Shown piece by piece: positions 2,979-36,469 of a stretch of 40,854 bases of DNA. Source of the DNA: an uncultured Saprospiraceae bacterium (GTDB taxonomy: Bacteria; Bacteroidota; Bacteroidia; Chitinophagales; Saprospiraceae); the NCBI GenBank assembly GCA_905480605.1, contig CAJQRD010000103.1:1-40854 (forward strand), written 5' to 3'. The notes beneath the pieces are model-generated. The model did no database searches. It was not told the origin of the DNA and saw only the letters and a list, made by a program, of their open reading frames with translations. Position 1 is the stretch's first letter. Every line of letters begins with the position of its first letter. The translations under genes and the position numbers were made by a program.

Positions 2979-2979
2979 T

Positions 2980-4194: not shown

Positions 4195-4195
4195 C

Positions 4196-9322: not shown

Positions 9323-10207
9323 CTAGAATTTAAGCTTTTCTTCTTTATCCCATATTCCCCAATATGCACCAACATCTCCTTCGTCACCTACTTTCCATGA
9401 TTCATCAAATGACGAAAAATAAAACATCTCAATGTTTTCTTCCTTTGACCATTGCTGCATATTTAGAAAATATCGAAGTGCATTTTCTTTAGACGGATGC
9501 GCATCATCTAGACCAGTGCCTTGGCTGGGCCAACCAGTCTCTGTAATGATCACTTTCTTTCCCTGACCTGCATGTAAGGCTTGGTAGTACATTTGTTTGG
9601 CATGCATCAACGCATAATCGATATGACATCCTTCCCAATAGGGGTAGCAATTCGCCAAGATAACATCACAAGCATCCGTTACCTTTGGTCGGTGACTGAA
9701 TTCATAATAAGCATCTACATAAGCGACCTCTATGTCGGGTAACGCATTTTTAAACTGATTGATATAAACCAATAGTTCTTCTTCCGTCAGATCTCCTCGG
9801 TACATCACTTCATTACCTACGGCGGCGATATCAACCATTCCTTCTTTTGACAATTCAATTAATCCCTCTATTTCTTTTTTATTCAATTCTAAATCCTTCC
9901 CTAACCAGGCTCCAACTAATGTTTTAATGCCCATTTCCTTAGCTATACGAGGGATGAGATCATTGCCTTCTATGCATGAAAAAGAACGGACCCACTTTAT
10001 ATAAGGGCAAAGAATTTCCAATCGGCGTCTGACTTGATCTTCAGTTAAAACATGACCAGGTTTCTGACCTTCCTCATAAGCACTAAAGCAAAGACCATGC
10101 ATTCCCAAGTCTAGTTTTTCTTGGAATAAAAGCTTAATTTCTTCGGACGATGTTTGAGTATAATTCGTTCCTTTTAGCGATAATCGTTTTTCCGGTCTGT
10201 AGGACAT
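9323..10207 (-). CDS. Cytoplasmic GH17 beta-1,3-glucanase or transglucosylase
   Basis: A 294-residue stand-alone GH17 TIM-barrel with no signal peptide or membrane segment, so probably cytoplasmic. The two catalytic glutamates are in place: acid/base E133 in VGNE and nucleophile E223 in ITETGWPSQG. Other family landmarks are KWVRSFSCIEGN, TLVGAWLGKD, LANCYPYWEG and FYFSSFDESWKVGDEGDVG. It is the last gene of the glucan operon, 82 nt after the transporter fusion, and is a close paralogue of that fusion's GH17 domain, evidently from a tandem duplication. It could cut imported laminari-oligosaccharides or transfer glucosyl units onto them, feeding the phosphorylase upstream in the operon. Hydrolase versus transferase activity cannot be told from sequence. 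Confidence 0.9.
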   Translation of the reverse strand: MSYRPEKRLSLKGTNYTQTSSEEIKLLFQEKLDLGMHGLCFSAYEEGQKPGHVLTEDQVRRRLEILCPYIKWVRSFSCIEGNDLIPRIAKEMGIKTLVGAWLGKDLELNKKEIEGLIELSKEGMVDIAAVGNEVMYRGDLTEEELLVYINQFKNALPDIEVAYVDAYYEFSHRPKVTDACDVILANCYPYWEGCHIDYALMHAKQMYYQALHAGQGKKVIITETGWPSQGTGLDDAHPSKENALRYFLNMQQWSKEENIEMFYFSSFDESWKVGDEGDVGAYWGIWDKEEKLKF

Positions 10208-10289
10208 ATGATATAAGATTTAAAGTTAAATATATTAAGTAATATGTCTACTTTTTACAAAAAAATAGAAAGTTCTTTATTCGGTATTT

Positions 10290-12641
10290 CTATGAATATT
10301 TTAGATTTTCATATTTATCCCAAAGACCCCAACGTTCTCCTACATCTCCCTCATGGTGAACCTTCCACGATTCATCAAAAGAAGAAAAGTAAAACATTTC
10401 TATATTCTCTTGTCTAACCCACTCGTTGGTTTGAATAAAATATTTCATTGCATTGATTTCTGAAGGTTTCGCACCGTTGGTACTCTCACCTTTATCCGGC
10501 CAACCCGTCTCAGTAATAATCACTGGCTTACCTTGGGCAGCTTCTTTCGTTAAAGCATACATCTGTCTCAAGTAATTTGATGATTGCTCAATATCGCAAC
10601 CCTCCCAGAATGGATAGCAGTTTGCTAAAACAAGGTCGCAGGCCTCAACAATTCGAGGGCGTTCATGAAATTGATAATACGCATCTACATAACCAACAGG
10701 AATATCAGGTAATGCTTCTTTTACTCTATTTATGTAACTAAGCACTTCTTCTTCTGACAACTCATTTCTTAATAGTATCTCGTTACCTACAACGGCAATG
10801 TCAACAAATCCTTCTTTAGCCAGGCCAATCAATGCCTCAATCTCTTTTTCGTTTTGAGCTGTATCTTGGCCAATCCACGCACCAACCATAGTTTTCCTTC
10901 CTTTCTCATGAGCCACTCTCGGTATAAACTCATTTCCTTCTGTGCAAGAGAAAGAACGAACCCATTTGGTAAATGGAGCAATAACCTCCATTCGTTTCCG
11001 TATTTGCTCTTCTGATAATATATCACCAATATTCTGACCTTCCAAATAAGGACTAAAGCATAAACCATGAAGTCCGTTTTGTAAAGATTGCATAAAGAGA
11101 TCTGTAATCTCTCTCTTTGTTTTACCGGTAAAATCAATATCCGATTTTGATGTTGATTCTAGATCGCCAGTGAACAATGTATTTAACTTCCCAACCTGAT
11201 AAAAAGAGGTAAGTTTTTGAGGTGTTCTTTTACGTGCGTCCAATATCTTTCGCACCTCTCCAGCACTTTCTTCAGTAACGCTATAATCACGCATCACAAA
11301 CATAGCAATGAGTGTTCCCATTATAGGAATTCCTGAGAAAGATAACCTTAGGCCATCAATAGCACCTTCAGGTTGAATAGCTACACCAGAATCAAATCCC
11401 ACTGTACTCATAATAACACCACTTAACCCTCCTGCGATTGCAAATCCAAATTTTACCATCCACCAATAGATAGCTCCAAAAATTCCTTCTCTTCTCAGAC
11501 CAGTTTCCAGCTCATCTAGATCAATAACATCTGCTGTCATAGACATCATCAAAAGAAATAGGCTTCCTATACCAAAGGAAAAGAAAGGCAGTGCAATAAT
11601 GAACATATAAGGTTTGCCAGGAACAAACAGAAACCACAACATAATATACCCTATAATAGATATTCCTTGTGATACTAAAAAAGCTTTCTTTTTACCTAAT
11701 TTTTTTGACATTTTTGCTACGATAGGAATGACCATAAAAGTGGTCCCAAGAGCTCCTAAACATCCGAATAAGGTAGGCCATATACCTGCTGCACCAGCAT
11801 CACCATCAAAAAGGTGGTATACTATAATAAAGAATGAAAAAGATGCAATCGTCATAAATGCGTTATACACTAAGAAAGTAGCGATACATAGTTTTCTAAA
11901 TGGTTTGATTTTAAAAGCACTTACAAAACCTGCCCCTATTTCAATCAGACTATTTCCTATGTTTTTTATATTTAGCGGAGAATAGTCTTCGTTTAATGTT
12001 GATTTACTTTTAATAAATATACCTGGTATCATAGCACAAACTGCAAAAATTACCCCGACCCAAATAGCAAGTGTTCGGGTAGCTACTTCTGCAGATTCAA
12101 ACCATGTTGGATCATACATAATCACCCAAAACCAAGGGGCAATAACCCATGCCCATTGTCCTATAAATTGGGCAGTGGCCATTATACTAGTACGTTCATG
12201 AAAATCATTACTCATCTCATATCCCATAGCAACATAAGGAACGCTAAAAATGGTAATTCCCAAGTAAAAGACGAAGGACCAAAACATAAAGTAGGCAAAA
12301 TTATAATCTATTCCGCTAGACTTATAGAGTTGCCACATAATGATAAATGCTGCCCCCATAGTGATGGCACCAATAATCACATACTGTCTACGTCGACCCC
12401 ATCGAGATTTCGTATTATCTGAAATATACCCCATTATTGGATCCGTAAAAGTATCGAAGAGTCTTGGAAAAAAGTATATAACACCCCACATCCATCCAGG
12501 AAAACCAAGGTCTTGTACTAAAACTACCATAAATATCCCTAGCGCTGCAGGAAACATTTGATTGGCAAGCATTCCAACCCCGAAGGCTACTTTTTGACCG
12601 AACGGTACTTTATCATGCACTGATGTTTGTTGATTTGACAT
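10290..12641 (-). CDS. GPH/MelB-type sugar transporter fused to a cytoplasmic GH17 domain
   Basis: A 783-residue fusion. Residues 1-450 are a 12-TM major-facilitator transporter of the glycoside-pentoside-hexuronide:cation symporter group, with RWGRRRQYVIIGA (loop 2-3), FTDPIMGYISDNT, VPYVAMGYEM, and DVIDLDELETGLRREG near TM10. Residues about 451-505 are a polar linker. Residues about 506-783 are a complete GH17 barrel with acid/base E621 (VGNE), nucleophile E711 (ITETGWPDKG), LANCYPFWEG and FYFSSFDESWK. GPH carriers have both termini in the cytoplasm, so the enzyme should face the cytosol at the substrate exit. The ORF is uninterrupted, and both halves look intact. The GH17 half is paralogous to the next gene. 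Likely role: import of laminari-oligosaccharides coupled to immediate cleavage or transglycosylation. The fusion is directly visible; coupling is inferred. Confidence 0.93.
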   Translation of the reverse strand: MSNQQTSVHDKVPFGQKVAFGVGMLANQMFPAALGIFMVVLVQDLGFPGWMWGVIYFFPRLFDTFTDPIMGYISDNTKSRWGRRRQYVIIGAITMGAAFIIMWQLYKSSGIDYNFAYFMFWSFVFYLGITIFSVPYVAMGYEMSNDFHERTSIMATAQFIGQWAWVIAPWFWVIMYDPTWFESAEVATRTLAIWVGVIFAVCAMIPGIFIKSKSTLNEDYSPLNIKNIGNSLIEIGAGFVSAFKIKPFRKLCIATFLVYNAFMTIASFSFFIIVYHLFDGDAGAAGIWPTLFGCLGALGTTFMVIPIVAKMSKKLGKKKAFLVSQGISIIGYIMLWFLFVPGKPYMFIIALPFFSFGIGSLFLLMMSMTADVIDLDELETGLRREGIFGAIYWWMVKFGFAIAGGLSGVIMSTVGFDSGVAIQPEGAIDGLRLSFSGIPIMGTLIAMFVMRDYSVTEESAGEVRKILDARKRTPQKLTSFYQVGKLNTLFTGDLESTSKSDIDFTGKTKREITDLFMQSLQNGLHGLCFSPYLEGQNIGDILSEEQIRKRMEVIAPFTKWVRSFSCTEGNEFIPRVAHEKGRKTMVGAWIGQDTAQNEKEIEALIGLAKEGFVDIAVVGNEILLRNELSEEEVLSYINRVKEALPDIPVGYVDAYYQFHERPRIVEACDLVLANCYPFWEGCDIEQSSNYLRQMYALTKEAAQGKPVIITETGWPDKGESTNGAKPSEINAMKYFIQTNEWVRQENIEMFYFSSFDESWKVHHEGDVGERWGLWDKYENLKYS

Positions 12642-12668
12642 ATTTTATGGTTTTTAGGCACTTTACAT

Positions 12669-14207
12669 TTATGATTTTGTTGAATTCGGAATTATAATAG
12701 TTTGGATCGCCTGTCCGTTTATTTGAATTGTAACATTACTTTCACCTAAAGTCAAGTTAATAGCTTTTACTTGTTCCTTTTCATTAAAAATCACAACTGC
12801 AATACTGTTATCTGTATTCTGAGCGGCAGTAACTATTAAATCATTATTCGAAGAAGTTGCACCAATACGAACAGCACCTGGTCTAATATATTTACTGAAA
12901 TGTGTCATTACATAGTAGATCGGTGTATAATACACCTCATCCATTTCTGGATCAACTATCACGGGGGCTACACACCAATTTTTAAACCAATTTGGCCCAC
13001 CTTGTTTATCTAATATCATATTCCAATCAATCCAGCCATCGACCCAATTATTGAGACATCCAATAATATCTCTGGCATAGCGATTCACAGGCGCATACTT
13101 GGGATGTAAATGCTTTTCATTTTCTGGTGCCCAGTCCCAGCCCCAATCTGTTCCTTCTTTTTTCCAATACCAAGCGTCATCTTTCCATTTTGGAATTTCG
13201 GAATCAACACAAGCTTCTGTTTGTATTAAGTGTTTGTTAGGTGCTTTATTATGTGCATATTGCAGAACCTCAGGAAATACTTCATAGGTGCTAGCATACC
13301 AATGAATGGCAGTACCCGCAAAATATTTTGAAGAAGCTTCATTTTTGTACATGTTATCAACCCAATCTTGTAGATGATCTCGATTTTGATCGTATCCTAA
13401 AATCTTAACATCGTGTCCATCGGCCTCAAGTTTAGGACCTAGGTAGTTCTGAACGAAACTGGTCATTTCATCAGCCGTAAAATGCATGCTTTCCCAATTA
13501 TTACCATTTCCTAATGGTTCATTCTCAACTGTAACACCCCAAATATCAATCCCTTCCGCCTTGTATGCGTCGATATACTTTGAAAAGAATAAGGCCCAGG
13601 TATCCCTATGTTTAGGTAAGAGATTGCCGCCCACCCAATCCTTGTTATCTTTCATCCATGGCGGTGCTGTCCAAGGCGAGGAAACTATTTTGAATCCATC
13701 TTTCGATATTGCCATAGCCTCTTTAATCATTGGTATAATATCATCACGATCTTCGTCAATAGAAAAATGTTCTAATTTTAAATCTCCTTCAACAGGTGCG
13801 TAAGAATATTGACTCAATGAAAAATCGCATGAATTCATATGCGTTCTGGTCAACGAATAATTGGCGCCTTCTTCTCCGAAATATGCCTGTAATATTTTAT
13901 CGCGATTTGAAGCACTCAGTTTATTTAAGAGATGGGCTGAAGACTCGGTAAAAGAGCCACCAAATCCAGTAATAGTTTGGAATTTTTTTGTAGGGTCTAA
14001 ATTAATATTTACAACTTTCTGAGCAGGCTCAAATGTTGTCATTTTTTTGAGTTTGTTACCACTAGCAGAGGTCTCATAGACAGCAACTTGTAACAGCTCC
14101 ATATTTTTGTTTATAGTTTTATCAGGCTTACAAGTAATTAAGCCCAAAATAAAAATGTTGAGTATAATGAATTTGAATGTTGTCTTTGTTTCAAAAATAT
14201 TTGACAT
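12669..14207 (-). CDS. GH30 glycosidase lipoprotein (subfamily 1 type, probably beta-1,6-glucosidase)
   Basis: A 512-residue lipoprotein with an N-terminal hydrophobic stretch ending GLITC (C26). The GH30 barrel begins at FQTITGFGGSFTESSAHLL. Catalytic acid/base is E230 in TVENEP and nucleophile E331 in IQTEACVD. Other family signatures are SLTRTHMNSCDFS, SSPWTAPPWMK and the GWIDWNMILD segment. The C-terminal beta-sandwich closes with VIFNEKEQVKAINLTL. In laminarin loci GH30_1 enzymes remove beta-1,6-linked glucose side chains, and that role fits this operon. It lies 21 nt downstream of the GH17 lipoprotein gene and 27 nt upstream of the transporter fusion. Lipidation places it in the periplasm or on the cell surface. 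The lipobox has Thr at -1, slightly off consensus. Confidence 0.93.
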   Translation of the reverse strand: MSNIFETKTTFKFIILNIFILGLITCKPDKTINKNMELLQVAVYETSASGNKLKKMTTFEPAQKVVNINLDPTKKFQTITGFGGSFTESSAHLLNKLSASNRDKILQAYFGEEGANYSLTRTHMNSCDFSLSQYSYAPVEGDLKLEHFSIDEDRDDIIPMIKEAMAISKDGFKIVSSPWTAPPWMKDNKDWVGGNLLPKHRDTWALFFSKYIDAYKAEGIDIWGVTVENEPLGNGNNWESMHFTADEMTSFVQNYLGPKLEADGHDVKILGYDQNRDHLQDWVDNMYKNEASSKYFAGTAIHWYASTYEVFPEVLQYAHNKAPNKHLIQTEACVDSEIPKWKDDAWYWKKEGTDWGWDWAPENEKHLHPKYAPVNRYARDIIGCLNNWVDGWIDWNMILDKQGGPNWFKNWCVAPVIVDPEMDEVYYTPIYYVMTHFSKYIRPGAVRIGATSSNNDLIVTAAQNTDNSIAVVIFNEKEQVKAINLTLGESNVTIQINGQAIQTIIIPNSTKS

Positions 14208-14228
14208 ATAGTATTGTTTTTCTATTCA

Positions 14229-15506
14229 TTAATAGGCCATTTCTAAATTCTTTTCTGGTGGCATTTTTACTGTGTTCATTAATTCTTCTAGATTACCATT
14301 GTATGTTTTTTGAATAGGATTCCCGCCTCTAGTCAAGCCAGAAAAAACACCTTGATCAACCAGGTCCCAAATCGCACACTTGGCTTTGCCATCAATTGTG
14401 AAAAGTCCAAAATGATTTTCTGATCCCTCTGGATTTTTCGCATCTTTCCATTTTTCATCAAAAGCTTCAAAGTAAAAGCATGATATCCCCTTTTCATTTG
14501 TCCAGTTACGCATAAGTTTATAATAAACAGCCTCTTTATACTCATCGCAAGCTTTGGATCCATCTGGACCATAGAAGCCATCAGAAGAACTGGCCCATCC
14601 TGATTCTCCAATGTGAATAGGCTTATTAACATCAATCCCTTTTATATATTCTGATGTACTATTAAATTGTTGTTGAGCATATTTAACAGTACGTTGCATA
14701 GCTGAATCTATTTTTTCTTTATCAGATAAATCTTTATCGTTTTCGAAAACGCCCCAAAAACTTGGGTTATAATGTGTGTCATGCATAGGATAGGTATGCA
14801 AAGACACATAGTCGACAGCATTAATGAGTTTATTCAGCTCTTCACAATGGTACAAACTATCTCCTCCTCCCCACGAAGCAAAATTATCAGATGACGTTAT
14901 CCAAAGATCTTTGTCCAGCTTCTCATTCTTTTTTAAATCTTGTAAATAATTAACCCACTTCAGTATGACACCTGGCTGCACATAATAGGTTTCAGCCCAT
15001 TTAACCATTGCCTCATTTCCAACAGCGATGACCTTTACAATATCAGAATATTGTATGGCCAGACGAACTGCTTCGTTTATTTGGGCTTCATTGGCCTCAC
15101 TCTCTTGGTAATGGTCAGGTTGATGATCTGTCCAAGCATTTTTGCAATCGATCCATGCTCCCAACATGACATACATTTCGAAACCAGGATCTTCCTTTTT
15201 TAATGCCGAAATGGCTTTTAATAAATTTGACGCTTGTGGAAAATGTACTTTATAAGTACGTATTATTTTTATACCCATAGCAGACAATAGTTTCATGTCC
15301 TCTTTGAGCTCATCGATGGTCGGTTCAATGTCATGATCGACATGTCTATAGCCGCCATAAGACATTGCCAAATACATTGCGTTGCCTAAAATATCTTTTA
15401 CTTTCATTTCTTTTTTTTGCGATTCACTGTTTACTTTGACTTCTTGACTATGATCACAAGAAAAACAAAATATGGTTAGTGCTAATATAAAAATTCTAGG
15501 TTTCAT
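14229..15506 (-). CDS. GH17 beta-1,3-glucanase lipoprotein
   Basis: A 425-residue protein with a short lipoprotein signal (MKPRIFILALTIFCFSC, C17). The GH17 barrel carries acid/base E165 in AVGNEAMVKW and nucleophile E301 in HIGESGWASS. IKIIRTYKVHFPQASNLLKA, YVMLGAWIDCKN, VDYVSLHTYPMHDTHYNPSF and CFYFEAFDEKWKD are further family landmarks. It is clearly different from the two cytoplasmic-type GH17 copies: longer, exported and with Ser in place of Thr in the nucleophile motif. Its start ATG directly abuts the phosphorylase stop (TAAATG). It probably trims linear beta-1,3-glucan in the periplasm or on the surface, after GH30 removes branches. Confidence 0.92.
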   Translation of the reverse strand: MKPRIFILALTIFCFSCDHSQEVKVNSESQKKEMKVKDILGNAMYLAMSYGGYRHVDHDIEPTIDELKEDMKLLSAMGIKIIRTYKVHFPQASNLLKAISALKKEDPGFEMYVMLGAWIDCKNAWTDHQPDHYQESEANEAQINEAVRLAIQYSDIVKVIAVGNEAMVKWAETYYVQPGVILKWVNYLQDLKKNEKLDKDLWITSSDNFASWGGGDSLYHCEELNKLINAVDYVSLHTYPMHDTHYNPSFWGVFENDKDLSDKEKIDSAMQRTVKYAQQQFNSTSEYIKGIDVNKPIHIGESGWASSSDGFYGPDGSKACDEYKEAVYYKLMRNWTNEKGISCFYFEAFDEKWKDAKNPEGSENHFGLFTIDGKAKCAIWDLVDQGVFSGLTRGGNPIQKTYNGNLEELMNTVKMPPEKNLEMAY

Positions 15507-18500
15507 TTACTTCAAATTGTCTCTATTTATTTGAACATTAATTTGAATAACTTCTCCAGTTCTGTCAAATATTAGTTGACTATTTGCTTGGTCTAATAGC
15601 AATGAGTCAACCCTAATTGAGTCATTCTTTGTGATCAACTCTAATCGAGAGTCATCTCCCAAATGAAAAACGATCGGTACTTGGCAAACAGTAAAACAAA
15701 GTGAATCCTTAACCATTTCAATATATTTTATTTGCCCCGTCACATCCACATATTCAAAAGTTTCTGGCTGAATTAAAAATTCATCTTTTCTCAATAAATT
15801 TGGATTGAAATAAAGCCTCCCTTCTGTGACACAGACTCCTAATTCCCCAAAACGGCTCAAAACATCTTCTTTAACTTGTCCTGTCATACCTGGTTGCTGA
15901 GCGCCTTTACCACCTGGTGTATGTGAATAGGGGTCAGTAGGAAATGCTCCATATAATGAAGGAGATTTATGAACGCCAATCCCCTCATTTATTTCATAAT
16001 AATGTTCTAATAAACCACCTATAACAACTTCACTTTCATTGTTCTCAATAGCTGTTAAACAGCATTCTTGAACTGCCAATTGTAACTTTGAAACCATATG
16101 CCAATAAATTGATCCCAAGCCTTCATAACCATAAAATGTACCTGACCTTCCTGTGAAAGCTTTATGATTAAAAATATCTTCAAAAACTTTTACGATCTGC
16201 TCTTTTTCTTGTGTTGCCAACTTTGCATACTTCGTATGTTGTAGAGCTGTCAGAGCAGCATTCAAATCTTTAGCATTGTTAAAGTCTCCATTAAAATGGT
16301 AACCACCATTGATGTCCTTTTCAATTATTTGAATATTACCATCATTCACCATTTGAGTCAGCAATCCAGAAGCGGCAACCTCCATTTCTTGGATATTGTT
16401 TTTTTCTAAGAATCCAGGTAATTTCTTATTCGGATACAAGAGATAACTGTATTGATCTTTCCTGAACAATTTGCTTTTTTTCAGTGCATTTAAAAGTTCC
16501 AAGGCCTCAAAAGAAGATAAACACCCAGAACTTAAAACAGCTACCTGCCCCTCCAGCATTTCACTGAGGTGTGATATAGTAATAGCTTCAGTATTCTCGA
16601 CCGTCATTAAATTATATGCATGGTATAAATTGTCAGGCCTTTTATTAGCGGCTATCGAATGCTCAACATAATGAAGGCTCAGATTTACAAATAACCTCAA
16701 GCCACTTAAACTAACTGTTCTTTTTGTGCTCCAAAAAGACTGTTTATATATGTGCTCGCGATAATCACTGCCTGCTTGCCCTAATCCATCCAAAATTAGC
16801 TTGCGATCCTTATCAGGAATTTTTCCAGACAATACACTTTGATGTTCACTCAACACATCTCGAATACGCTTATAGAAATCCATCAATTCACCTGATACTT
16901 TGACACCTTCAAGACTAGAATCAGTTAGTATTCTTTCGAAAAACTTTAGGAATCTCCTTAAATAATAAAGTGTTACCATTGATACACCATTACCAACGAG
17001 TGCATTGTTTGCATCATTCCATTCTGGGCGTTGCGTGTTCATCCAAATTCCACCTTCGGGAATAAAATTGGATATCTTTGACAATAAGGTCGCTAATATC
17101 TTTTCTATGAAATTTACATTATGTATAGATCCATTTTCATCTTGTAATAACGCACCGTCAGCTCCAATCTCAGATTTTCGCTGATTTATGGCCAAGTCTA
17201 AATCATGATCAAAAGCAATTGTGTCTTTTGAATCCTTCAGAATTTCCTGATGACTCTTTATCTTATATGGAACATTCGCATAAACAAAAATATCTTTATC
17301 AAAATATTGTTCCAAAGTTCCAGGTGAATGGTCTTCTAAAATTTCTAATAATTTTAATAAATATATAATTTGATGATCTCCCCAATAGCCAATATAAGAC
17401 CAAGGGTTATCTGGTTCAATAGTCTCCCAATCGAATCCATCCTTCGTGACCCTATAAGGATTGTACCCTTCAAAAGTAGAGGCATTTAAAAATTTGTGTA
17501 TCATGCTCTCAGTAAAAGCTGGATAAGAATGTGCGAGTGCCTCCCAATTTTGAAATATATCTCTCCAATTTCCTTCGTAGTCTAATATTTTTGATCCATC
17601 GATTTCACTTTGAGTATTTATAGAAAACTTATTCCAAGGTCTACTTGGGTCTCCATGTCTTCGACTAAATTTCAAAGGCATATATTCAAGACACAGTCTA
17701 CTAAAATTTAAATCTTCGTTGTTTTTGGACAAATCCCTGAGCACCGAAAGTGAAAATACTTCAGGAAGATTCTTCATACTTTCTCCAAAAGTTTTAAAAA
17801 TTTCACGATTTCCATTTGATAAGAAATTAATAAAATCATCTTTTTCTATCTGATAGTTATTATCGAAAATACCCCCTCGCATAATATTGAATAGTGTATT
17901 CGAATAATGACGGGTATCTCGAAATTGATCTGCAGTACATTGCAATCCATCAGAAGATGCAATCAGTTTTAATAGCCGCTTTGTACCGTGTTCAACATCT
18001 TGAAGTACAATGTCAGCGAGATTTTTATTATTTATTATTTTTTCAGATAGGGCCACGATTGCTGACTGATTTTTATTCACATCAGCTATTATCATCCATT
18101 CTTTTTGCTCTTTGGATGATAAATTCATATCAGCAACAATAAAATATCCGCCTTTTTCGGCTTTAATATCTAATTCTTCTGAAATATGATTTCCCTTTCT
18201 AAAAGAAGATAATTGCAGTGACGATAATAAGAGAATACTGTTTTCAATGCCCAAAGACCAAACAATATTAGCCTTTAACGCTTCACTTGGCTCAGCTTTA
18301 TCAACTATAATAGCGCTAAGTGCGTATATGCCAATGCCAGATTTTTTTATAAGCTCATTCCTTTTGTAGGCATCTACTAAATTACTGGATTGGTTTTGTA
18401 TATCACTACCCACTCCTGCGGGAACAATATTTTGAATACCATCACATATTGATATTTTAACACTCTCTTGAGAATTATTAATTATCTGAGAGCGTCTAAT

Positions 18501-18953
18501 AAATCCGAATTTATTGCTCGAACTCCATTGGTATCTATACGTGATTTGTAAATCATGATTTACTTCTTCAAAGAGCAGTTTGTTTCCGCTAATATTTTTA
18601 TAAAGATTCTGACTTATATCATATTTGCCTTCCTGACGAAGCGAAAATGGCTCCCATAGATATGATTGGTTTTTTATTTCAATTCTAAAAATGGATTTAC
18701 TTCCTGTATTTTCAACTGACTCAGTAATCTTGTCATCTGTATAATAAGGAAATAATGAATGATCTGCGTTTTTTCTGCCTGCACTTAATCCTCCATTACT
18801 TGATATGAACATCCAATGATTAGAATCACTCACGATACTCATAAAAAATGGTCGCAATGCGTTGCTATTCGATATCTTAAAAAAGTTTTCGCCTTCTATT
18901 TTTACCCTCGTTATTTCTGAGGGATTAGGAAGCGTATGTTTATTTTTTTCCAA
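15507..18953 (-). CDS. Large beta-1,3-oligoglucan phosphorylase-like protein (GH149-type)
   Basis: An 1148-residue protein without signal peptide, so cytoplasmic. Its size and segments resemble the GH94/GH149/GH161 glycoside phosphorylases, closest as I recall them to GH149: a beta-sandwich N-terminus (FFMSIVSDSNHWMFISSNGG), then an (alpha/alpha)6 barrel with RRHGDPSRPWNKFSI (431-445), EGNWRDIFQNWEALAHSYP (460-478) and YIGYWGDHQIIYLLKLLEIL, where D526 is a candidate catalytic acid. GH149 enzymes split beta-1,3-gluco-oligosaccharides with phosphate to glucose 1-phosphate, saving ATP. The start is TTG at 18953: no ATG, GTG or TTG lies between it and the in-frame stop upstream, and homologous sequence precedes the first ATG codon (residue 38). 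Family assignment is by recognition, not alignment; GH94-like alternatives remain possible. Confidence 0.78.
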   Translation of the reverse strand: MEKNKHTLPNPSEITRVKIEGENFFKISNSNALRPFFMSIVSDSNHWMFISSNGGLSAGRKNADHSLFPYYTDDKITESVENTGSKSIFRIEIKNQSYLWEPFSLRQEGKYDISQNLYKNISGNKLLFEEVNHDLQITYRYQWSSSNKFGFIRRSQIINNSQESVKISICDGIQNIVPAGVGSDIQNQSSNLVDAYKRNELIKKSGIGIYALSAIIVDKAEPSEALKANIVWSLGIENSILLLSSLQLSSFRKGNHISEELDIKAEKGGYFIVADMNLSSKEQKEWMIIADVNKNQSAIVALSEKIINNKNLADIVLQDVEHGTKRLLKLIASSDGLQCTADQFRDTRHYSNTLFNIMRGGIFDNNYQIEKDDFINFLSNGNREIFKTFGESMKNLPEVFSLSVLRDLSKNNEDLNFSRLCLEYMPLKFSRRHGDPSRPWNKFSINTQSEIDGSKILDYEGNWRDIFQNWEALAHSYPAFTESMIHKFLNASTFEGYNPYRVTKDGFDWETIEPDNPWSYIGYWGDHQIIYLLKLLEILEDHSPGTLEQYFDKDIFVYANVPYKIKSHQEILKDSKDTIAFDHDLDLAINQRKSEIGADGALLQDENGSIHNVNFIEKILATLLSKISNFIPEGGIWMNTQRPEWNDANNALVGNGVSMVTLYYLRRFLKFFERILTDSSLEGVKVSGELMDFYKRIRDVLSEHQSVLSGKIPDKDRKLILDGLGQAGSDYREHIYKQSFWSTKRTVSLSGLRLFVNLSLHYVEHSIAANKRPDNLYHAYNLMTVENTEAITISHLSEMLEGQVAVLSSGCLSSFEALELLNALKKSKLFRKDQYSYLLYPNKKLPGFLEKNNIQEMEVAASGLLTQMVNDGNIQIIEKDINGGYHFNGDFNNAKDLNAALTALQHTKYAKLATQEKEQIVKVFEDIFNHKAFTGRSGTFYGYEGLGSIYWHMVSKLQLAVQECCLTAIENNESEVVIGGLLEHYYEINEGIGVHKSPSLYGAFPTDPYSHTPGGKGAQQPGMTGQVKEDVLSRFGELGVCVTEGRLYFNPNLLRKDEFLIQPETFEYVDVTGQIKYIEMVKDSLCFTVCQVPIVFHLGDDSRLELITKNDSIRVDSLLLDQANSQLIFDRTGEVIQINVQINRDNLK

Positions 18954-18985
18954 AGTATTGTAAATTTTATCGGTTATCTATTTTT

Positions 18986-19837
18986 TTAATTTTCGGCACT
19001 ATATACTCTTACATAATCTATCAACATCGTTTGAGGGAAAACCGTTGAGGCGTTTGGTGACCCAACAAAATTACCACCAACAGCCAAATTAATTATGATA
19101 TAAAATGGATGATCAAAAACCCATTCGCCATTGACATCACCCGGCGTAATTTGGTTATATAAAACATCATCTACATAGTAATTTATATAATCAGGTCCCC
19201 ATTCAATACCAAATATATGAAAGCCAGTATCAAAGCGATCATTTTCTAACTTGTAATTTTTTCCTATTGCATTCCCAGCAGAATAACCAGGTCCATGTAC
19301 ACTCCCTAATAAATTAGTTGGTGCTTGTCCACGGTATTCCATTATATCAATTTCGCCACATTGCGGCCAACTCACTTCATCAATATTATTGCCTAAAAGC
19401 CAAAAAGCGGGCCACAGTCCCTGCCCCCAAGGCAGTTGAATGCGTGCTTCAAAACGTCCATATTCCTGCTCAAATTTTCCAGCAGTATTTATTCGGGCAG
19501 AGGTGTACCCAGAAGCCATAAATGATTCTTTTATCGCTGTAATTTTTAAATTACCATCTTCTACTGTTATATTTTCAGCACGATCAGTATAATACTGCAA
19601 TTCATTATTACCCCAACCTTGTCCAGAAATAGCGTTACCAGTACCGACATCGAAATTCCAAAGAGAGTTGTTTATTGTACTTCCTTCAAAGTCATCTTCC
19701 ATAGTAACATTTGTAAAATTTACTACGGTTTGCATTTCATCAACATTGCAACCACTGAATAAAGTTAATAGCAAAGTAGAATATAATAAACCAATGCTAA
19801 TAAATAGACCTTGTTTATCTTTAGAATTGTATAACAT
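18986..19837 (-). CDS. GH16 endo-beta-1,3-glucanase (laminarinase) lipoprotein
   Basis: A 283-residue lipoprotein with lipobox LFSGC (C30). A single GH16 jelly-roll domain fills residues about 45-281. The catalytic motif is GEIDIMEY with nucleophile E162, D164 and acid/base E167; the beta-bulge form EIDIME is that of GH16 laminarinases. Flanking landmarks are YGRFEARIQLPWGQGLWPAF, LLGSVHGPGYS, FHIFGIEWGPDYINYYVDD and PFYIIINLAVGGNFVG. There are no binding modules attached; binding is supplied by the preceding gene product. It lies 99 nt after that gene and 32 nt before the phosphorylase. It probably makes the first endo-cuts in laminarin at the outer membrane. Confidence 0.95.
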   Translation of the reverse strand: MLYNSKDKQGLFISIGLLYSTLLLTLFSGCNVDEMQTVVNFTNVTMEDDFEGSTINNSLWNFDVGTGNAISGQGWGNNELQYYTDRAENITVEDGNLKITAIKESFMASGYTSARINTAGKFEQEYGRFEARIQLPWGQGLWPAFWLLGNNIDEVSWPQCGEIDIMEYRGQAPTNLLGSVHGPGYSAGNAIGKNYKLENDRFDTGFHIFGIEWGPDYINYYVDDVLYNQITPGDVNGEWVFDHPFYIIINLAVGGNFVGSPNASTVFPQTMLIDYVRVYSAEN

Positions 19838-19936
19838 CGTTATTTTGTTTGTTATTAAAAATATGTTTTATTTTTCCTTATTTACTTTTTAATAAAAAAA
19901 GAAAATATACATTACTATATTCCTTTTTTAAAATGG

Positions 19937-22786: not shown

Positions 22787-22798
22787 GATCTCTATTTA

Positions 22799-25700
22799 TT
22801 ATTTTCCAATGTTGATGTGTATATAAGTTCTAATTTCCCATTCTGTTCCATTACCAAACCCTACTGGACTGATCACAGGCTCTGGATTAAATTCAACAGT
22901 CTCATTTGGACTGTAGCGGGGTGAGAATTCATCAAGTGAGCGCCATGTTCCTCTTATCCCCATTTGTGTATTTGGCAAAATAAACCAATCTGGTTTTCCC
23001 AGTGTCGTAGATAAGTCTAGCATCAACTGTGCTGGATACGTTAGGTTAAAATCGCGGTGATAATCAAAAGGTCCCCAGTCATTTATTTTAACATGAGAAG
23101 TTAATTTTAATTTCTTGTATATAGCTCTTAAGTCTATTCCATAGCGTTTAATCAGTCTTGCATCGCTACCATTTGATTGAGTATTTCCGACGTGAACATT
23201 CGCAATCAAGCCAAAATCAAGATTGAATTTAGAAACTATTCGAATATTTGTCTCCCACAAATCTTGCGCAGGCACAGAGTTTGGAAATGCAAACGAAGTA
23301 CGATTGCTTAAAAACCCAATGGCAGCATCTTGTGTCGTTGGTAGGTGACGAAAAACAAATCCAGCACTCATAGCAAAACTAGCGTCTTCTGTTCGATCGT
23401 TGTCCCATTCGTACATCCATGTTGCTGGAGTTGGGTCAAATGTTAGCAACAGTTCCCCTGCTACTGTTTCTCTATTTGCTCGTACAGCAAACGGGTCGTC
23501 TTGTATGTTTCTTAATCTTCCTGGACCACTTACATCACCTGGGATAGGATCAACCAATGGTTTTTGCCATAGAAAATTCGGAGCAATTTGTAGGTTGCCA
23601 ATTAAGTATGAAAATCCTGTTAAAAAGTTTTTCTGATTTCCACTTCCAGAGTCTTTTAATCTCCAACCTGTAAAAGTTCTTGTGTAATCCGCTCCCCCAT
23701 TGGCTACTAAGCCCATCATTGCACCTTGTGCATACCAACTAAATGCGCCTTTAGAATATGTAATTTTAGCTTTGCTACCCCAATTGTCCGAGGACTTGAT
23801 TTTATCATCATACACGGTATAATCTCCTGATGTACCTTCTACCATTTGGAAAGTCCTTCCATTTAATGGCTGACCTCCCCAGATACCACCCACTTCAAAT
23901 TCGACAGCTCCAAAATCTCTTTTTAAATGAACAGTAGCTTTCCTAGTTTTTGGAAGTGGTATCGCAATAGAGGTCACTGCATCTCCTACTTCATCTATGT
24001 CCTCATGAAACACACCTGTGAAATCAAAATGACCAACTTTTCGACTATATTTTAATAAAAAAGCCGGGTTTGCTCCCCACCATAATTGTGGTCCAAAGGC
24101 TGCTTTTAATCCTTTTAATTTCTTCTTTCCATCAATTTCGATTCCTAGTATTTCACCATTATAAATATCCAGATTAGGCCCATAATTGGCTTCGGGATAT
24201 AAGCCAAAAAAATCACCTTCATATCCCCAATGATAATGGCCGGTTCTGTAAAACCCTCTTGCATCAAAATCTTTAGCACTCCATTCAAATTCAGCATTAT
24301 AAACCTGCATTCTATTAACATCATTAAGGACTTGTGTGCCATTAGAACTATTAACAGCAATAGAACGACCTCTGTTTTCATAAAAAATTTCATCTATTGG
24401 ATTCTGTGCCACAGCCCCAAGTACATTAAAATTAACATTGGCTCGCATGTTAGGAGCTGGATTGGCTTCAACGCCGATATAATAAGATTGCATCTGATCA
24501 AAGCCCAATTCATCAGGATAATTATTTGCCGTTGGATCTGGATCAGAAGGTGTTGTTATCAAACTACCTCCAGTACTAAAAGTGGTAAATTCAGCTCTTA
24601 AGTTACTCAAGCTAATTTTTTTTTTTGCATCTAAAGCTGCTTTATCACCGCGCGCTTTGAGTACAGCATCCATAAGTTCAATGTCATTAAAATATTGATC
24701 TATAGATGCAACAGTAAAGCCATCTTTATATGGATTGATTTGGTGTGCCTCTTTAAGGGCATAATAAGCAGCTCGTGGATATAAATCATAAAGGCCTCTT
24801 TCATTAGTCGGACCTTTAGCACACACACCAAACCATTCTTCATTCATATTGTTTTCACCTGGCGCTAAGTCCAAGCCATAACCACCATTAGACCACGATG
24901 CATTATTATCATGGACTTCTAAATTTTTTGTTTGGCCATACTTCCACCATCCATCGCTAAATTGAAAGGTAAATCCACCGATTGAATTTCCTGCTTTGCC
25001 AAGTCCTGCTGCGTTTTGGTAAATTTCCTTCCAGTTTTCTACCATATAATAAGCTTGCATTCTCTGGTCTTCTGCATTTTCGATTGCATTAAATGCATCA
25101 CAACCAAACTCTGTAAATAGAATAGGTTTATTCAATTCATTTTTCACCCTCTGGAACGCATCACCAAAGGAAGATCCACGATACATATTTACGCCTATAA
25201 TGTCTACGTCCTTGCATTCTTCTGCAAGAATGTCTGCAAACAAAAGATCCCCATTACAAACAGCAATTGGATGCAAGGAGTCAATCTCTTTCATTTGGAT
25301 TGTTGCGGCGTTCATTAGTTTATACATAGGACGCCCGCGAGATTCCCCAACAAACCTCTGTTCGGCCTCATCGTCTGGAAAATCTTCGGTTTCAGCACCT
25401 GCCCAGAATAGCCCATAATTGTTTTCATTTCCCAATAAAAACAGCAAAACACCAGGCGTGTTTTTATATTCTTCCGCCATTAGTTTGACCTCAGATAGAA
25501 GCAATTCTTGTGTTGAAGGATCAGAATAATCTGTAACAGGAACCCAAGCTCCATTTATTGTCATTCCATATCGACCAAATGCATGATTAAGCATGGTGTA
25601 AATGCCATGTTTATCATAGATATATTGAATCCATTTAGGTTGAACGCCGGTATACTGTCTAATGGCATTGACGCCCATGTTCTTTAACAGTCCCATCTCT

Positions 25701-25918
25701 TCATCCAAAGCTGCCCTAATAAAATCGTCTGATTGGTTCCATAAACTGTATGAGTAGTTGGTGCCAATGGGAAAATAATCCCAATTCATTCCATTGATCA
25801 TGAAGTCTTCTCCATTAACCACGAGTCTCATTCCTTCTTCATTGTGCAATACTGATATCTGAGTAAATGCCGAGGTCGTGAAGAGAAAAAGAAAAAAACC
25901 TAAAATGTGCTTTTTCAT
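22799..25918 (-). CDS. Secreted clan GH-A glycosidase fused to a C-terminal outer-membrane barrel-like domain
   Basis: A 1039-residue protein with a Sec signal peptide (about 1-19, cut before Q20). Residues about 28-395 are a TIM-barrel glycosidase of clan GH-A: FMINGMNWDYFPIGTNYSYS, MGVNAIRQYTGVQP, acid/base E165 in LLGNENNYG and nucleophile E270 in PILFTEFGCDAF. It looks like a GH2- or GH72-type barrel, but I cannot fix the family. A helical linker (about 400-460) follows. Residues about 470-1039 are a long run of amphipathic strands with aromatic girdles and Asp/Asn/Gly turns (RANVNFNVLGAVA, KGAFSWYAQGAMMGLVANGG, IRTYIHINIGK), the look of an outer-membrane beta-barrel. First gene of the operon, divergent from the regulator. 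Likely a surface beta-glucan enzyme carried by its own pore or anchor; barrel identity is inferred. Confidence 0.8.
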   Translation of the reverse strand: MKKHILGFFLFLFTTSAFTQISVLHNEEGMRLVVNGEDFMINGMNWDYFPIGTNYSYSLWNQSDDFIRAALDEEMGLLKNMGVNAIRQYTGVQPKWIQYIYDKHGIYTMLNHAFGRYGMTINGAWVPVTDYSDPSTQELLLSEVKLMAEEYKNTPGVLLFLLGNENNYGLFWAGAETEDFPDDEAEQRFVGESRGRPMYKLMNAATIQMKEIDSLHPIAVCNGDLLFADILAEECKDVDIIGVNMYRGSSFGDAFQRVKNELNKPILFTEFGCDAFNAIENAEDQRMQAYYMVENWKEIYQNAAGLGKAGNSIGGFTFQFSDGWWKYGQTKNLEVHDNNASWSNGGYGLDLAPGENNMNEEWFGVCAKGPTNERGLYDLYPRAAYYALKEAHQINPYKDGFTVASIDQYFNDIELMDAVLKARGDKAALDAKKKISLSNLRAEFTTFSTGGSLITTPSDPDPTANNYPDELGFDQMQSYYIGVEANPAPNMRANVNFNVLGAVAQNPIDEIFYENRGRSIAVNSSNGTQVLNDVNRMQVYNAEFEWSAKDFDARGFYRTGHYHWGYEGDFFGLYPEANYGPNLDIYNGEILGIEIDGKKKLKGLKAAFGPQLWWGANPAFLLKYSRKVGHFDFTGVFHEDIDEVGDAVTSIAIPLPKTRKATVHLKRDFGAVEFEVGGIWGGQPLNGRTFQMVEGTSGDYTVYDDKIKSSDNWGSKAKITYSKGAFSWYAQGAMMGLVANGGADYTRTFTGWRLKDSGSGNQKNFLTGFSYLIGNLQIAPNFLWQKPLVDPIPGDVSGPGRLRNIQDDPFAVRANRETVAGELLLTFDPTPATWMYEWDNDRTEDASFAMSAGFVFRHLPTTQDAAIGFLSNRTSFAFPNSVPAQDLWETNIRIVSKFNLDFGLIANVHVGNTQSNGSDARLIKRYGIDLRAIYKKLKLTSHVKINDWGPFDYHRDFNLTYPAQLMLDLSTTLGKPDWFILPNTQMGIRGTWRSLDEFSPRYSPNETVEFNPEPVISPVGFGNGTEWEIRTYIHINIGK

Positions 25919-26113
25919 TCTGTATTATTTAAAGTAATAAATAATTAATTGTACCAACTCTACGTTGCCCAATATAAGAATAAGACACTTAAAGCTCATG
26001 CAAATCACCTCATCAAATATTTCATCAGCTATAATATATGCTACATCAAAAATCATACATATAGGGTCTAAGTCCCTGTTATTTAACTATATTTGAATTT
26101 TGCAAAATTTCGC
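25919..26113. promoter_or_regulatory. Divergent promoter region of the glucan operon and its regulator
   Basis: The 195-bp spacer separates the glucan operon (minus) from its probable regulator (plus), so it should contain both promoters and any operator. An inverted repeat AGGG-TCTAAGT-CCCT lies at 26063-26077, 37 bp before the regulator ATG. No clear TTG-N19-21-TAnnTTTG promoter was found by eye. Confidence 0.4.
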
Positions 26114-28987
26114 ATGATAAAAAAACAACACTACTGCAAGTACATTTTTTGTTTGATATTTCTTTTAGGATATCTATATCCAATACTTGCTTTTGAGGGT
26201 CGCTACCCCATTCAAAATTTTACTCCTGCTGCATACAAGGCCGGTATCCAAAATATCGATTTTGCTCAAAATCGAGATATGTCCCTATTTGTGGCAAATA
26301 ATTTAGGTGTCCTGTCATTCAATGGAAACGATTGGGAAACCCACTCCTTTAAGTCAGGAAAGAAAAAAAGATCACTGGCTTTTGATGAAAATACCAATAG
26401 ACTATATGTTGGATCACAAGGTGAATTTGGGTATTTTAAAGAAGACTGGAACTATGTTTCCTTGGTAGACATTATTCCAGATAATAATCGGGATTTTGAT
26501 GAAGTTTGGGATGTTTACATACACAATTCAAAAATTTATTTCTGTTCTTTTCAAAATATTTATGTGTATGATGGTAAGACCATTTCTTGCATCAAACACG
26601 AAGGAGGGTTCGAAAGATCGTTTCACACAAATGGACAACTCTTCACTCAGAGCCAACAAGGGAAGCTTTTTGCGATAAAAGGCAATAAACTCACTGAAGT
26701 GTACCAGCAAATACATAATGGACAAACTATCGCCGGTGTGATTCAGCATGATACTGGATATTCGCTATTTTATAATTCAGGGCAAATCGAGTATATGACT
26801 TCATTCAGAGTCACTCCTCAGTATCCTGATTTAATTCAGGCATTGCAGGGAAGCTACGTTAATCATGTATTACAACTTGCGGATATGCGCCTTGCAATTT
26901 CAACCCAATCGTCAGGTTTATTTATATATGATACACAAACTAATAGTATAGAAAATATAACAACCAACGATGGACTAGAATCCAATACATGCTTACGGTC
27001 TTTTCAAGACTATACCGGAAATATATGGGTAGGTATGCAGAACGGAATCGCCTTAATTCATATTAATTCCCCAATGCGTTTAATCAACCAAGAACTTAAT
27101 ATTCAGGGAAGTGGTTATGAGGCATTTGAGACAGATTCTGGAATCTATTATACTACCTCCAATGGCATTTATTTTTTAGCAAAAAATGCTAAAAAATGTG
27201 TATTTCTTAAAGGAACTGAAGGCCCAGCATATGGAATTACAAAGGTTGCAGGGCTTCTATACGCAGGACATCAGACTGGCCTATTTCTTTTAGAAAATAC
27301 AACAGCTCAACTATTGGCCAATACGGATGGATTATGGCGGATCAAGCAGTTGCGTTCAAATCCTAATTTTGCAATTGGAGGGATGTATTCCGGCCTATAC
27401 CTATTCAAGATCAATAAAAACAGACAGCTAAAAGCAATACAAAAAATCAATGGCTTTAATGAGTCAAGTCGCTTCTTTGAAGAAGACCAACAGGGAAATA
27501 TTTGGGTAGGACAATATTACAAAGGACTTTACAGATTAACACTTTCTGAAAGCTTAACTGAAGCTACTGTCATTAAAGTTTCAGATGATTATAACTTAAC
27601 AAACCACGAACAAATTATTCTCGCCAACATTGATAATAAGATTCATATCGCTACCACAGAAGGTATGTCTCAATTGGATCAGACTATAGATAAGATTGTG
27701 GACGCCGATGTTTTTAGCAAAGAATTTGGTGGCCGACCTATATATTTAATTGGGCAAGATCTCCAGAAAAACGTGCATGTTATTGGAGAAAATCAAGTTG
27801 GTTTTTACAAACAAATCAGTTCAAAAAACTATACATTCATACCATCTTCTTTATTTCAATTACGCTATTACTTAAACAATGATTTATTAAACATTTCAGT
27901 CAATAGTCATAGTGGAGTTTTATTTTCTGCTAATGAGGGTTTTATACATTATAATCCTGAATTGGAAAAACGTTTATATTCAGAAACTCCTCTAGTCATA
28001 AATAAGGTATTCAGTGTTACACAAGACAGCCTATTGTATATACTAAATCCATTTGAGACTCGCCCAAAGCAGATCGAACCCCTAGTTGTTCATCAAAGCG
28101 CCAGAGTACTACAGATAGATATAGAATCTTATCAATTCAACGATGTCAACAACCTACAGTTTAGGTACATTCTAAAGGGGTTTAATGATAATTATGGAGA
28201 ATGGACAAATGCTACAACAAAAGAATATACCAATTTAAAAGAAGGCAATTATTCATTTATAGCCCAGACGCGCAATTACCTTGGAGAAATATCAACGAGC
28301 CAACCTTTATCAATAAAAGTGAAACCGCCATTTTATAAAAGTTGGTGGGCTAAAACCATTTATATTGTACTAGGATGCGTAACACTATTATTATTGTATC
28401 TATTTCAAAATAGACGGTATATAAAGCAAGCAAAGAAATTAGAAGAAAACACGCAAATTGAACTGGACGAAAAACAAAATAAATTAATCGAAATAGAAAA
28501 GCAAAAAGAACGTGAACTTTCTCAAATGGAAGAATTGAAAATAGAAAGAGAATTACATCACGTCAATAATTTACTAGCTGCGTCAACAATGAATCTGGTA
28601 GTGAAAAATGAATTTATAGAAACAATTAAAGAAGAACTCAAAGACGTCAGGAAAAAAGGTAAAAGCAAGGAAACCAAAATGGCCTTGGAACGAATAGTAA
28701 AAGAAATAGATACTTCACTACGAATTCAAGAAGACTGGAAACAGTTCGAACATCATTTCGATCAGGTTCATGGTGATTTATTAAAACGTCTTCGAGATGA
28801 ATTCAAAGATCTTTCACCTAATGAACAGAAACTCTGTGCTTTTTTACGCCTCAATCTTAATACAAAAGAAATCGCAAACCTCATGAGCATTTCTGTAAGA
28901 GGAGTTGAACTTGCACGCTATCGATTGCGCAAAAAATTGGATTTGCACAAAGGGCAAAATCTATCTAAGTTTATCATGAAATATTAA
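26114..28987 (+). CDS. Membrane-bound propeller/Y_Y_Y sensor with cytoplasmic LuxR-type HTH
   Basis: About 957 residues from the ATG at 26114; the frame also opens at a TTG 21 nt earlier. A signal or anchor segment (CKYIFCLIFLLGYLYPILAF) leads to a periplasmic two-component-regulator-type beta-propeller (about 40-640, with repeats such as YVGSQGEFGYFKED and GNIWVGQYYKGLYRL), a Y_Y_Y domain (about 655-737, FRYILKGFNDNYGEW), one TM helix (about 745-765), a Glu/Lys-rich coiled coil (about 769-892) and a C-terminal helix-turn-helix (about 896-957: LSPNEQKLCAFLRLNLNTKE, then ISVRGVELARYRLRKKL). There is no kinase or receiver domain, so it is a transmembrane one-component regulator. Divergent placement implies it senses glucan fragments in the periplasm and activates the operon. 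Confidence 0.9.
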   Translation: MIKKQHYCKYIFCLIFLLGYLYPILAFEGRYPIQNFTPAAYKAGIQNIDFAQNRDMSLFVANNLGVLSFNGNDWETHSFKSGKKKRSLAFDENTNRLYVGSQGEFGYFKEDWNYVSLVDIIPDNNRDFDEVWDVYIHNSKIYFCSFQNIYVYDGKTISCIKHEGGFERSFHTNGQLFTQSQQGKLFAIKGNKLTEVYQQIHNGQTIAGVIQHDTGYSLFYNSGQIEYMTSFRVTPQYPDLIQALQGSYVNHVLQLADMRLAISTQSSGLFIYDTQTNSIENITTNDGLESNTCLRSFQDYTGNIWVGMQNGIALIHINSPMRLINQELNIQGSGYEAFETDSGIYYTTSNGIYFLAKNAKKCVFLKGTEGPAYGITKVAGLLYAGHQTGLFLLENTTAQLLANTDGLWRIKQLRSNPNFAIGGMYSGLYLFKINKNRQLKAIQKINGFNESSRFFEEDQQGNIWVGQYYKGLYRLTLSESLTEATVIKVSDDYNLTNHEQIILANIDNKIHIATTEGMSQLDQTIDKIVDADVFSKEFGGRPIYLIGQDLQKNVHVIGENQVGFYKQISSKNYTFIPSSLFQLRYYLNNDLLNISVNSHSGVLFSANEGFIHYNPELEKRLYSETPLVINKVFSVTQDSLLYILNPFETRPKQIEPLVVHQSARVLQIDIESYQFNDVNNLQFRYILKGFNDNYGEWTNATTKEYTNLKEGNYSFIAQTRNYLGEISTSQPLSIKVKPPFYKSWWAKTIYIVLGCVTLLLLYLFQNRRYIKQAKKLEENTQIELDEKQNKLIEIEKQKERELSQMEELKIERELHHVNNLLAASTMNLVVKNEFIETIKEELKDVRKKGKSKETKMALERIVKEIDTSLRIQEDWKQFEHHFDQVHGDLLKRLRDEFKDLSPNEQKLCAFLRLNLNTKEIANLMSISVRGVELARYRLRKKLDLHKGQNLSKFIMKY

Positions 28988-30910: not shown

Positions 30911-30912
30911 TT

Positions 30913-34902: not shown

Positions 34903-35001
34903 AAGAAGTTTACCGTGTCCGTAAAAATTGGCGATAGCTCTTGGTTTAGTCTCGTTTAAAAAACGAAAATATGAAAAGAGATTTATATATTAACTTTTTA
35001 T

Positions 35002-35040: not shown

Positions 35041-35139
35041 GGGGTATACTTTAGTTATATTAGACTGCCATTTACTAATTATTACATACAATATCTTTCC
35101 TAGGATTTACTAAGAATTGATGTTAATACTCATTATTGT

Positions 35140-36468: not shown

Positions 36469-36469
36469 T

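Follow-up and report, generated by a model that had tools for sequence, protein, structure and literature searches.

Laminarin polysaccharide utilization loci (PULs) have been grouped into three variants (PMC6794258), and the susCD pair has been used to separate PULs from clusters of carbohydrate-active enzymes (CAZymes) (PMC10108472). Variant 1 laminarin PULs were among the most expressed in a North Sea bloom, and the same paper lists the arrangements GH149-GH0-GH30_1-GH17 and GH149-GH0-GH17-GH16_3-GH30_1 and reports one NS4 metagenome-assembled genome (MAG) without susCD (PMC10108472). In Formosa, three laminarin PULs are strongest on laminarin, and the SusD of PUL 1 and the GH16 of PUL 2 were found only on laminarin (PMC6246565). 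Here we analyzed a 40,854-bp stretch of DNA from an uncultured Saprospiraceae bacterium (hereafter, the window), which is the entire contig C103 from end to end, and in particular an operon whose leading gene encodes a predicted glycoside hydrolase (GH) fused to a predicted outer-membrane β-barrel. The GH16-GH30_1-GH17 gene set of the variant 1 PULs is present in this one cluster, namely GH16, GH30, GH17 (of which such PULs often have two), GH149, and a major facilitator superfamily (MFS) carrier. The locus is a laminarin utilization operon of the published type, with laminarin as its putative substrate, and by the rule of PMC10108472 it would count as a CAZyme cluster, as there is no susCD on the contig. 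The initial annotation regarded the locus as its best candidate for an undescribed system, but its gene set has been published as a laminarin PUL (PMC6246565, PMC13188888, PMC10108472) and an MFS-GH17 fusion was published in 2018. The leading gene is another matter. A glycosidase fused to an outer-membrane barrel is an architecture that, as far as our searches reach, we did not find described in open-licence PMC papers, subscription papers and supplements being outside the search. The unclassified GH0 of PMC10108472 is probably the enzyme domain of this gene.

The leading protein has 1039 residues, and its C-terminal ~600 residues gave no convincing Pfam match (best E 0.14). When this part alone (the last 610 residues, with 108 sequences) was modeled with AlphaFold2, a barrel was obtained with a pLDDT of 85.6 and a pTM of 0.83, in which DSSP gave 26 strands, two short pairs being left out. 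The predicted barrel is antiparallel with an even number of strands, its short turns and long loops lie on opposite sides, and its side chains alternate. The median loop length is 19 residues after odd strands and 2 after even ones (Mann-Whitney p 4e-4), and the in-out alternation of side chains (2.44) exceeded that of all 2000 within-strand shuffles (mean 1.52). In a Foldseek search, 49 of the top 50 PDB matches (792 at E<=10) were outer-membrane barrel proteins by title, and the single exception was an artificial metalloprotein; the barrel matches include porins, OmpF, MOMP, chitoporin, AlgE, BtuB and other TonB receptors, FimD ushers, and LptD. Thus, the outer-membrane location of the barrel, until now only a proposal, is favored by the models. 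We also considered that the barrel might be a fragment of a TonB receptor, which was ruled out because the 1039-residue protein has no match to the TonB Plug domain. The C-terminal aromatic residue of proteobacterial barrels is not typical here, since 80 of 109 relatives end in K and 14 in N; Bacteroidota barrels may differ from proteobacterial ones at the C-terminus. Full-length fused relatives are 57-75% identical, and for the 600 residues of the barrel the mean identity over 109 relatives is 70%.

Residues about 20-400 form a TIM barrel in the full-length AlphaFold2 model (pLDDT 76.8, pTM 0.52). Foldseek with this model placed GH158 and GH157 β-1,3-glucanases at ranks 1 to 8, BuGH158 being at rank 4, and outer-membrane proteins lower; the Foldseek identity to GH158 was 12-14%. 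A profile of 52 relatives matched BuGH158 (PDB 6pal) with an E-value of 4.9e-5 and GH158(Pro) with 2.7e-3, while a single-sequence search of PDB gave GH158 (9oro) at E 0.42 and a β-galactosidase (1yq2) at 5.5e-6. N164, E165, and E270 are invariant in an alignment of relatives (A1), and E165 and E270 are kept in 109 of 109 full-length relatives; Asn136-Glu137 and Glu220 are reported for BuGH158 (PMC7157763). We infer that the enzyme domain is a GH158-like β-1,3-glucanase, both its activity and its substrate being predicted.

The short turns of known outer-membrane barrels face the periplasm. Taken with the loop pattern of the model, this would put both ends of the barrel, and hence the enzyme, in the periplasm, and we accordingly model the glucanase at the periplasmic mouth of the barrel. 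It is very improbable that the barrel serves some other end, for example in adhesion, in export, or in binding insoluble glucan, or that the enzyme faces outward. The large loops that the model has on one of its sides and the presence of FimD ushers and LptD among the Foldseek matches would suit such a role, transport being itself a prediction, but the operon content is catabolic throughout, and the N-terminal position of the enzyme together with the loop pattern argues for the periplasm.

We next describe the distribution of the fused gene, which is found repeatedly in Bacteroidota. A scan of genome contigs yielded at least 587 confirmed relatives, of which 80 were kept. In a phylum sample, 47 of 395 genomes matched at E<=1e-10, comprising 33 full-length fused genes (own genome included), 6 enzyme-only genes, 4 broken or fragmentary ones, and 4 remote ones (27-33% identity); in a class sample, 18 of 395 genomes matched, 17 with the fused gene and 1 with the enzyme only. 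Stand-alone barrels were also looked for in the phylum sample and rejected as a class: barrel matches at E<=0.01 occurred in 38 of 395 genomes, 33 of them being the full-length fused frames and the rest two fragments (G235, G119) and three weak matches (G095, G277, G023). Among 110 mapped loci, the fused gene was present in 99, the enzyme alone in 7, and neither in 4, and the gene order barrel, binding lipoprotein, GH16 was near-constant. In 97 fused loci a further gene follows the barrel gene, and in 96 of these it encodes the N-terminal domain of the 949-residue lipoprotein that stands in this place in the window; in the 97th (L150) the domain lies elsewhere in the cluster. This partner domain was seen in none of the 7 enzyme-only loci, of which L126 is very short. 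In nine further stretches, it adjoins the barrel in seven; L158, from the genome of L150, is without it, and L159 ends first. A homologue of the divergent regulator adjoins the barrel gene in many loci. In three loci (L156, L157, and L160, from G051, G066, and G255), a protein of 415-423 residues, judged by eye to resemble a ROK/HTH-type regulator, sits between the binding protein and GH16, and the LuxR-type regulator is missing there.

Profile searches of the genome gave no Plug, PF07980, or PF14322 match on the window's contig, and the initial statement that the window holds no SusC/SusD was thus borne out; there were matches on other contigs, including one designated C50. The genome has 43 Plug and 7 PF07980 SusD matches in total, and C50 carries a codirectional run of SusC (991 aa), SusD (537 aa), a 695-residue repeat protein regarded as a surface glycan-binding protein (SGBP), and GH16 (371 aa). 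This GH16 is the only one in the genome besides that of the window, and the SGBP has repeat modules in common with the window's 949-residue protein (48% over 490 residues); the partner domain is absent from the C50 stretch. Absence of SusCD as a property of the organism was therefore rejected.

The two loci also have a promoter block in common. The block between the window's operon and its regulator is identical at 203 of 252 positions (81%) and in the same orientation to C50:22460-22709 (L009:19461-19710), upstream of susC, and it lies ~52 bp from the start codon of the barrel gene and ~49 bp from that of C50 susC. No further match in the genome was better than E 0.056. The block includes the first codons of the regulator, which on C50 is reduced to a stub of 42 codons that has an in-frame stop. 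Because the susC upstream region is a copy of the operon's promoter block, the C50 and window loci likely answer to one regulator, a prediction of one regulon from two distant loci of this genome that is made from sequence. The C50 copy looks like a promoter duplication that may have tied the two loci together. Inside the block, we noted a candidate operator, GTAG-N16-TGAAA-N3-TTGATG, which occurred upstream of relatives' barrel genes in 6 (strict) or 8 (loose) of 118 upstream regions (those of the window and of C50 among them) and in 0 (strict) or 3 (loose) of 11,800 shuffled regions; as the motif was derived from some of the same sequences, these counts are descriptive and post hoc. A scan of 7 genomes returned 15 motif rows versus 2 for a control pattern, namely 7 barrel promoters, 1 at C50, 6 inside open frames, and 1 intergenic site on contig C26. 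The own genome accounts for three sites, at the window promoter, at the C50 promoter, and on C26 (G000:C26:61432-61466), the last of which is intergenic and precedes a 109-aa open reading frame (ORF) by 68 bp. A wider regulon in the relatives was considered and dropped, because the 7 rows other than barrel promoters and C50 were those in open frames and on C26, with none upstream of susC. The -33/-7 promoter pattern of Bacteroidota was not found as a pair in 11 upstream regions, and a scan for sigma-70 promoters and terminators came out at or below chance.

The relation of the barrel to SusCD was then compared across relatives. Of the 78 fused loci for which at least 8.5 kb of upstream DNA was available, 63 had no codirectional SusC+SusD in the first 9 kb upstream and 15 had the pair, against 2 of 5 enzyme-only loci (p 0.27); the profiles used for this detection were derived from relatives of the C50 SusC and SusD and may miss distant pairs. 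The enzyme-only locus L122, with 8.2 kb upstream, also has SusC+SusD. Among the matches listed, 5 of 43 barrel genomes and 3 of 6 enzyme-only genomes had a PF07980 SusD no more than 10 kb away (Fisher p 0.047). Across the relatives, the order barrel, lipoprotein, GH16 is widely kept; that most fused loci have no pair nearby speaks for the initial annotation, but a minority do have one. A strict rule of either barrel or SusCD was rejected on the local-map p-value and because three enzyme-only loci have neither. In L121, L122, and L152, the leading gene is of the enzyme-only form and its operon also contains SusC-SusD and GH16-GH149, a pattern that would fit gain or loss of the barrel together with the importer.

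A search for PF07980 in 49 genomes, 43 with the fused gene and 6 with the enzyme alone, was positive in 39 and negative in 10 (9 fused, 1 enzyme-only), and PF14322 and PF12771 were then sought in these ten. Five genomes that are 99-100% complete (G404, G726, G051, G066, and G255) had no match to any of the three families, and the same held for G543 (80% complete) and the enzyme-only G242, PF12741 and TonB receptors lying outside this search. The loci of the five near-complete genomes have the barrel, the binding protein, GH16, and MFS; GH149 was seen in those of G404, G726, G255, and G051, in the last cut off at the edge, and not within the G066 stretch, and GH30 was not seen within the G255 stretch. 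These five genomes, and the lack of SusCD on the window's contig, would be in line with the proposal of the initial annotation that the cluster imports glucan on its own in this organism, in a distinct and self-contained manner and without any SusCD. We regard this as improbable here, because the same genome has the C50 SusC-SusD-SGBP-GH16 locus, with common SGBP modules, a copied promoter block, and the genome's only other GH16.

Instead, we lean toward a glucanase-coupled, TonB-independent channel that works beside SusCD in a laminarin operon, a reading that we place slightly on the probable side. Computation supports the gene content, the fusion, the barrel fold with its deduced topology, the partner domain, and the common promoter block, whereas substrate, activity, transport, and co-regulation are all predicted. 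According to this model, the surface lipoproteins (the 949-residue binding protein and GH16) would capture and cut β-1,3-glucan, and the barrel with its dedicated lipoprotein partner would form a TonB-independent channel. The GH158-like β-1,3-glucanase, fused at the inner mouth of this wide barrel, would cut incoming chains in the periplasm and so prevent back-diffusion. The GH17 and GH30 lipoproteins may then shorten and debranch the chains, the MFS-GH17 protein would import the oligosaccharides, and GH149 and GH17 would finish their degradation in the cytoplasm. The channel would operate alongside the C50 SusC/SusD locus under the same promoter type. A bolder version, possible but short of probable, is that the enzyme-barrel and lipoprotein are a TonB-independent counterpart of SusC/SusD, a glucanase-rectified pore in which hydrolysis rather than TonB drives uptake, and which would be the sole dedicated importer in SusCD-less lineages and a parallel one in most others.

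The main rival to the channel is that the barrel only anchors a periplasmic glucanase under the outer membrane, with uptake through the C50 SusCD or other TonB-dependent receptors. The SusCD-SGBP-GH16 locus with its copied promoter region, the fused loci with SusC+SusD upstream, and the two Formosa proteins, of PUL 1 and PUL 2, that were both found only on laminarin (PMC6246565) are consistent with such an anchor. However, 26 strands and 600 conserved residues would be a costly anchor when enzyme-only relatives use a lipobox (seen by eye in L122, L123, and L125), the dedicated lipoprotein partner recalls the SusC-SusD pairing, and searches with three SusD families came up empty in five near-complete genomes; we consider the anchor rather unlikely. 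Several observations weigh against the channel reading itself. The full-length model, with its pTM of 0.52, gives no reliable placement of the enzyme relative to the pore. In Foldseek the barrel aligns with low TM-scores (0.17-0.38, by query length) and identities of 6-11%, the number of strands is a model result, and the barrel profile had no sequence match in PDB up to E 10. L123, L124, and L125 have the enzyme with neither barrel nor SusCD nearby, so that the barrel is not simply an alternative to SusCD, and a search of six relatives gave no motif site upstream of a susC. Laminarin is among the largest marine carbon flows and its uptake is credited to SusCD; should the GH0, or the GH2 of Muricauda, turn out to be a pore coupled to a glucanase, a dedicated way into the cell would have escaped notice, and TonB-independent polysaccharide import could be tested in SusCD-less strains.

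At the inner membrane, the predicted fusion of a glycosidase to a transporter was found as expected, with an N-terminal MFS carrier and a C-terminal GH17 in one ORF. FbGH17B, an exo-β-1,3-glucosidase of the same architecture, has been proposed to link cleavage with uptake, and such MFS-GH17 fusions are stated to be common among marine Flavobacteriia (PMC6246565). The separate GH17 (9323-10207) and the MFS-fused GH17 (10290-11189) are side-by-side paralogues with 58% identity over 280 residues; MlGH17B, a related separate GH17 enzyme, is a transglycosylase (PMC11005184). Among the other barrel loci with a complete MFS gene, 13 have it unfused and 2 fused, long operons being over-represented among the 16 MFS genes at locus edges that were left unscored. 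The idea that every membrane crossing is tied to a cleavage step is thus not a conserved design.

The features of the window are listed in the table below. All nine ORFs are intact; on the minus strand, eight codirectional genes occupy 25918 down to 9323, separated by 0-99 bp, and a divergent regulator lies on the plus strand, as originally described. The regulator is listed with a TTG start, and we take the in-frame ATG at 26114 to be the likelier one. Pfam and NCBIfam gave, in operon order, a GH2_C-like TIM barrel, GH16, GH149, GH17, GH30, MFS_2 with GH17, and GH17. The GH149 passes the curated cut-off of NF058639 (1782.7 versus 1150 bits), with the GH149 structure 6hq6 as its top PDB hit; the GH30 scores below the cut-off of the endo-1,6 model NF053856.

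Features of the window and the evidence for each (positions in the 40,854-bp stretch)
Feature	Position	Strand	Evidence
1039-aa protein: signal peptide, GH158-like clan GH-A domain, predicted C-terminal outer-membrane β-barrel	22799..25918	-	domain scans, models, full-length relatives
Glycoside hydrolase domain, about residues 20-400; candidate acid/base N164-E165, nucleophile E270	24719..25861	-	conservation, Foldseek, profile match
β-Barrel domain, about residues 435-1038, 26 strands in model	22802..24616	-	AlphaFold2, Foldseek, loop and side-chain alternation
949-aa putative surface glycan-binding lipoprotein (lipobox); N-terminal domain residues 21-235	19937..22786	-	partner conservation, modules common with C50 SGBP
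GH16 lipoprotein, probable endo-β-1,3-glucanase (predicted activity)	18986..19837	-	PF00722 90.8 bits
GH149 β-1,3-glucan phosphorylase, no signal peptide seen	15507..18953	-	NF058639 1782.7 bits; PDB 6hq6 E 0
GH17 with lipobox, probable endo-β-1,3-glucanase	14229..15506	-	PF00332 30.5 bits; PUL position as FbGH17A/MlGH17A
GH30 with lipobox, probable β-1,6-debranching enzyme	12669..14207	-	PF02055 260 bits; PUL position as FbGH30
GPH-type MFS symporter with C-terminal GH17 domain	10290..12641	-	PF13347 213 bits, PF00332 38.1 bits; architecture as FbGH17B
Separate GH17 without signal peptide	9323..10207	-	paralogue of MFS-fused GH17
Divergent Y_Y_Y/LuxR-type regulator	26093..28987	+	Y_Y_Y/Reg_prop matches, weak LuxR-type HTH matches
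Promoter/regulator-leader block, second copy upstream of C50 susC	25971..26221	.	203/252 identical positions
Candidate operator GTAG-N16-TGAAA-N3-TTGATG inside block	26011..26044	-	motif read off same sequences, post hoc

Outside the locus, the window contains consecutive genes for an ABC ATPase, two LolCE-like permeases, and a LolA-like protein (1084-4978), an MBOAT acyltransferase gene that overlaps a 358-aa ORF with no family match, the two being perhaps a pair for polysaccharide O-acetylation (29462-31887), and a mevalonate-pathway group of a GHMP kinase (GYDIA family), HMG-CoA reductase, and a type-2 IPP isomerase-like gene (33997-37513).

Among described systems, PUL 2 of Formosa sp. Hel1_33_131, a variant 1 PUL, likewise has GH16, GH149, GH17, GH30_1, and MFS-GH17, whereas the window has a divergent regulator and no SusCD, and the accessible descriptions of that PUL mention no barrel domain (PMC6246565, PMC10108472). 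A MAG titled Formosa sp. Hel1_33_131 does contain the barrel gene (L020). The Muricauda laminarin PUL is syntenic, with a GH2-annotated protein, GH16, GH149 (or GH3), GH17, GH30_1, MFS, GH17, and LuxR; in its accessible description, the first enzyme is named a GH2 β-glycosidase, no barrel is named, and MFS and GH17 are separate genes (PMC13188888). FbGH17B, published in 2018, joins an N-terminal MFS to a C-terminal GH17 like the window's fusion, a comparison at the level of architecture (PMC6246565). BuGH158 (PDB 6pal) has the clan GH-A fold and the Asn preceding the acid/base Glu in common with the window enzyme, but it is a single-domain lipoprotein with ~12% identity in structural alignment, while the window enzyme is fused to the barrel (PMC7157763). 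A literature search for CBM103 found no paper. Chitoporin and other substrate-specific porins match the barrel in Foldseek (7vu2, 5ldv, AlgE), although they are smaller, carry no fused enzyme, and match with very low TM-scores. Finally, the window barrel differs from SusC/SusD in having no Plug, no TonB link seen, a fused glycosidase, and a lipoprotein that is not SusD, yet it resembles that pair in being an outer-membrane barrel gene that adjoins a constant lipoprotein partner in a polysaccharide operon.

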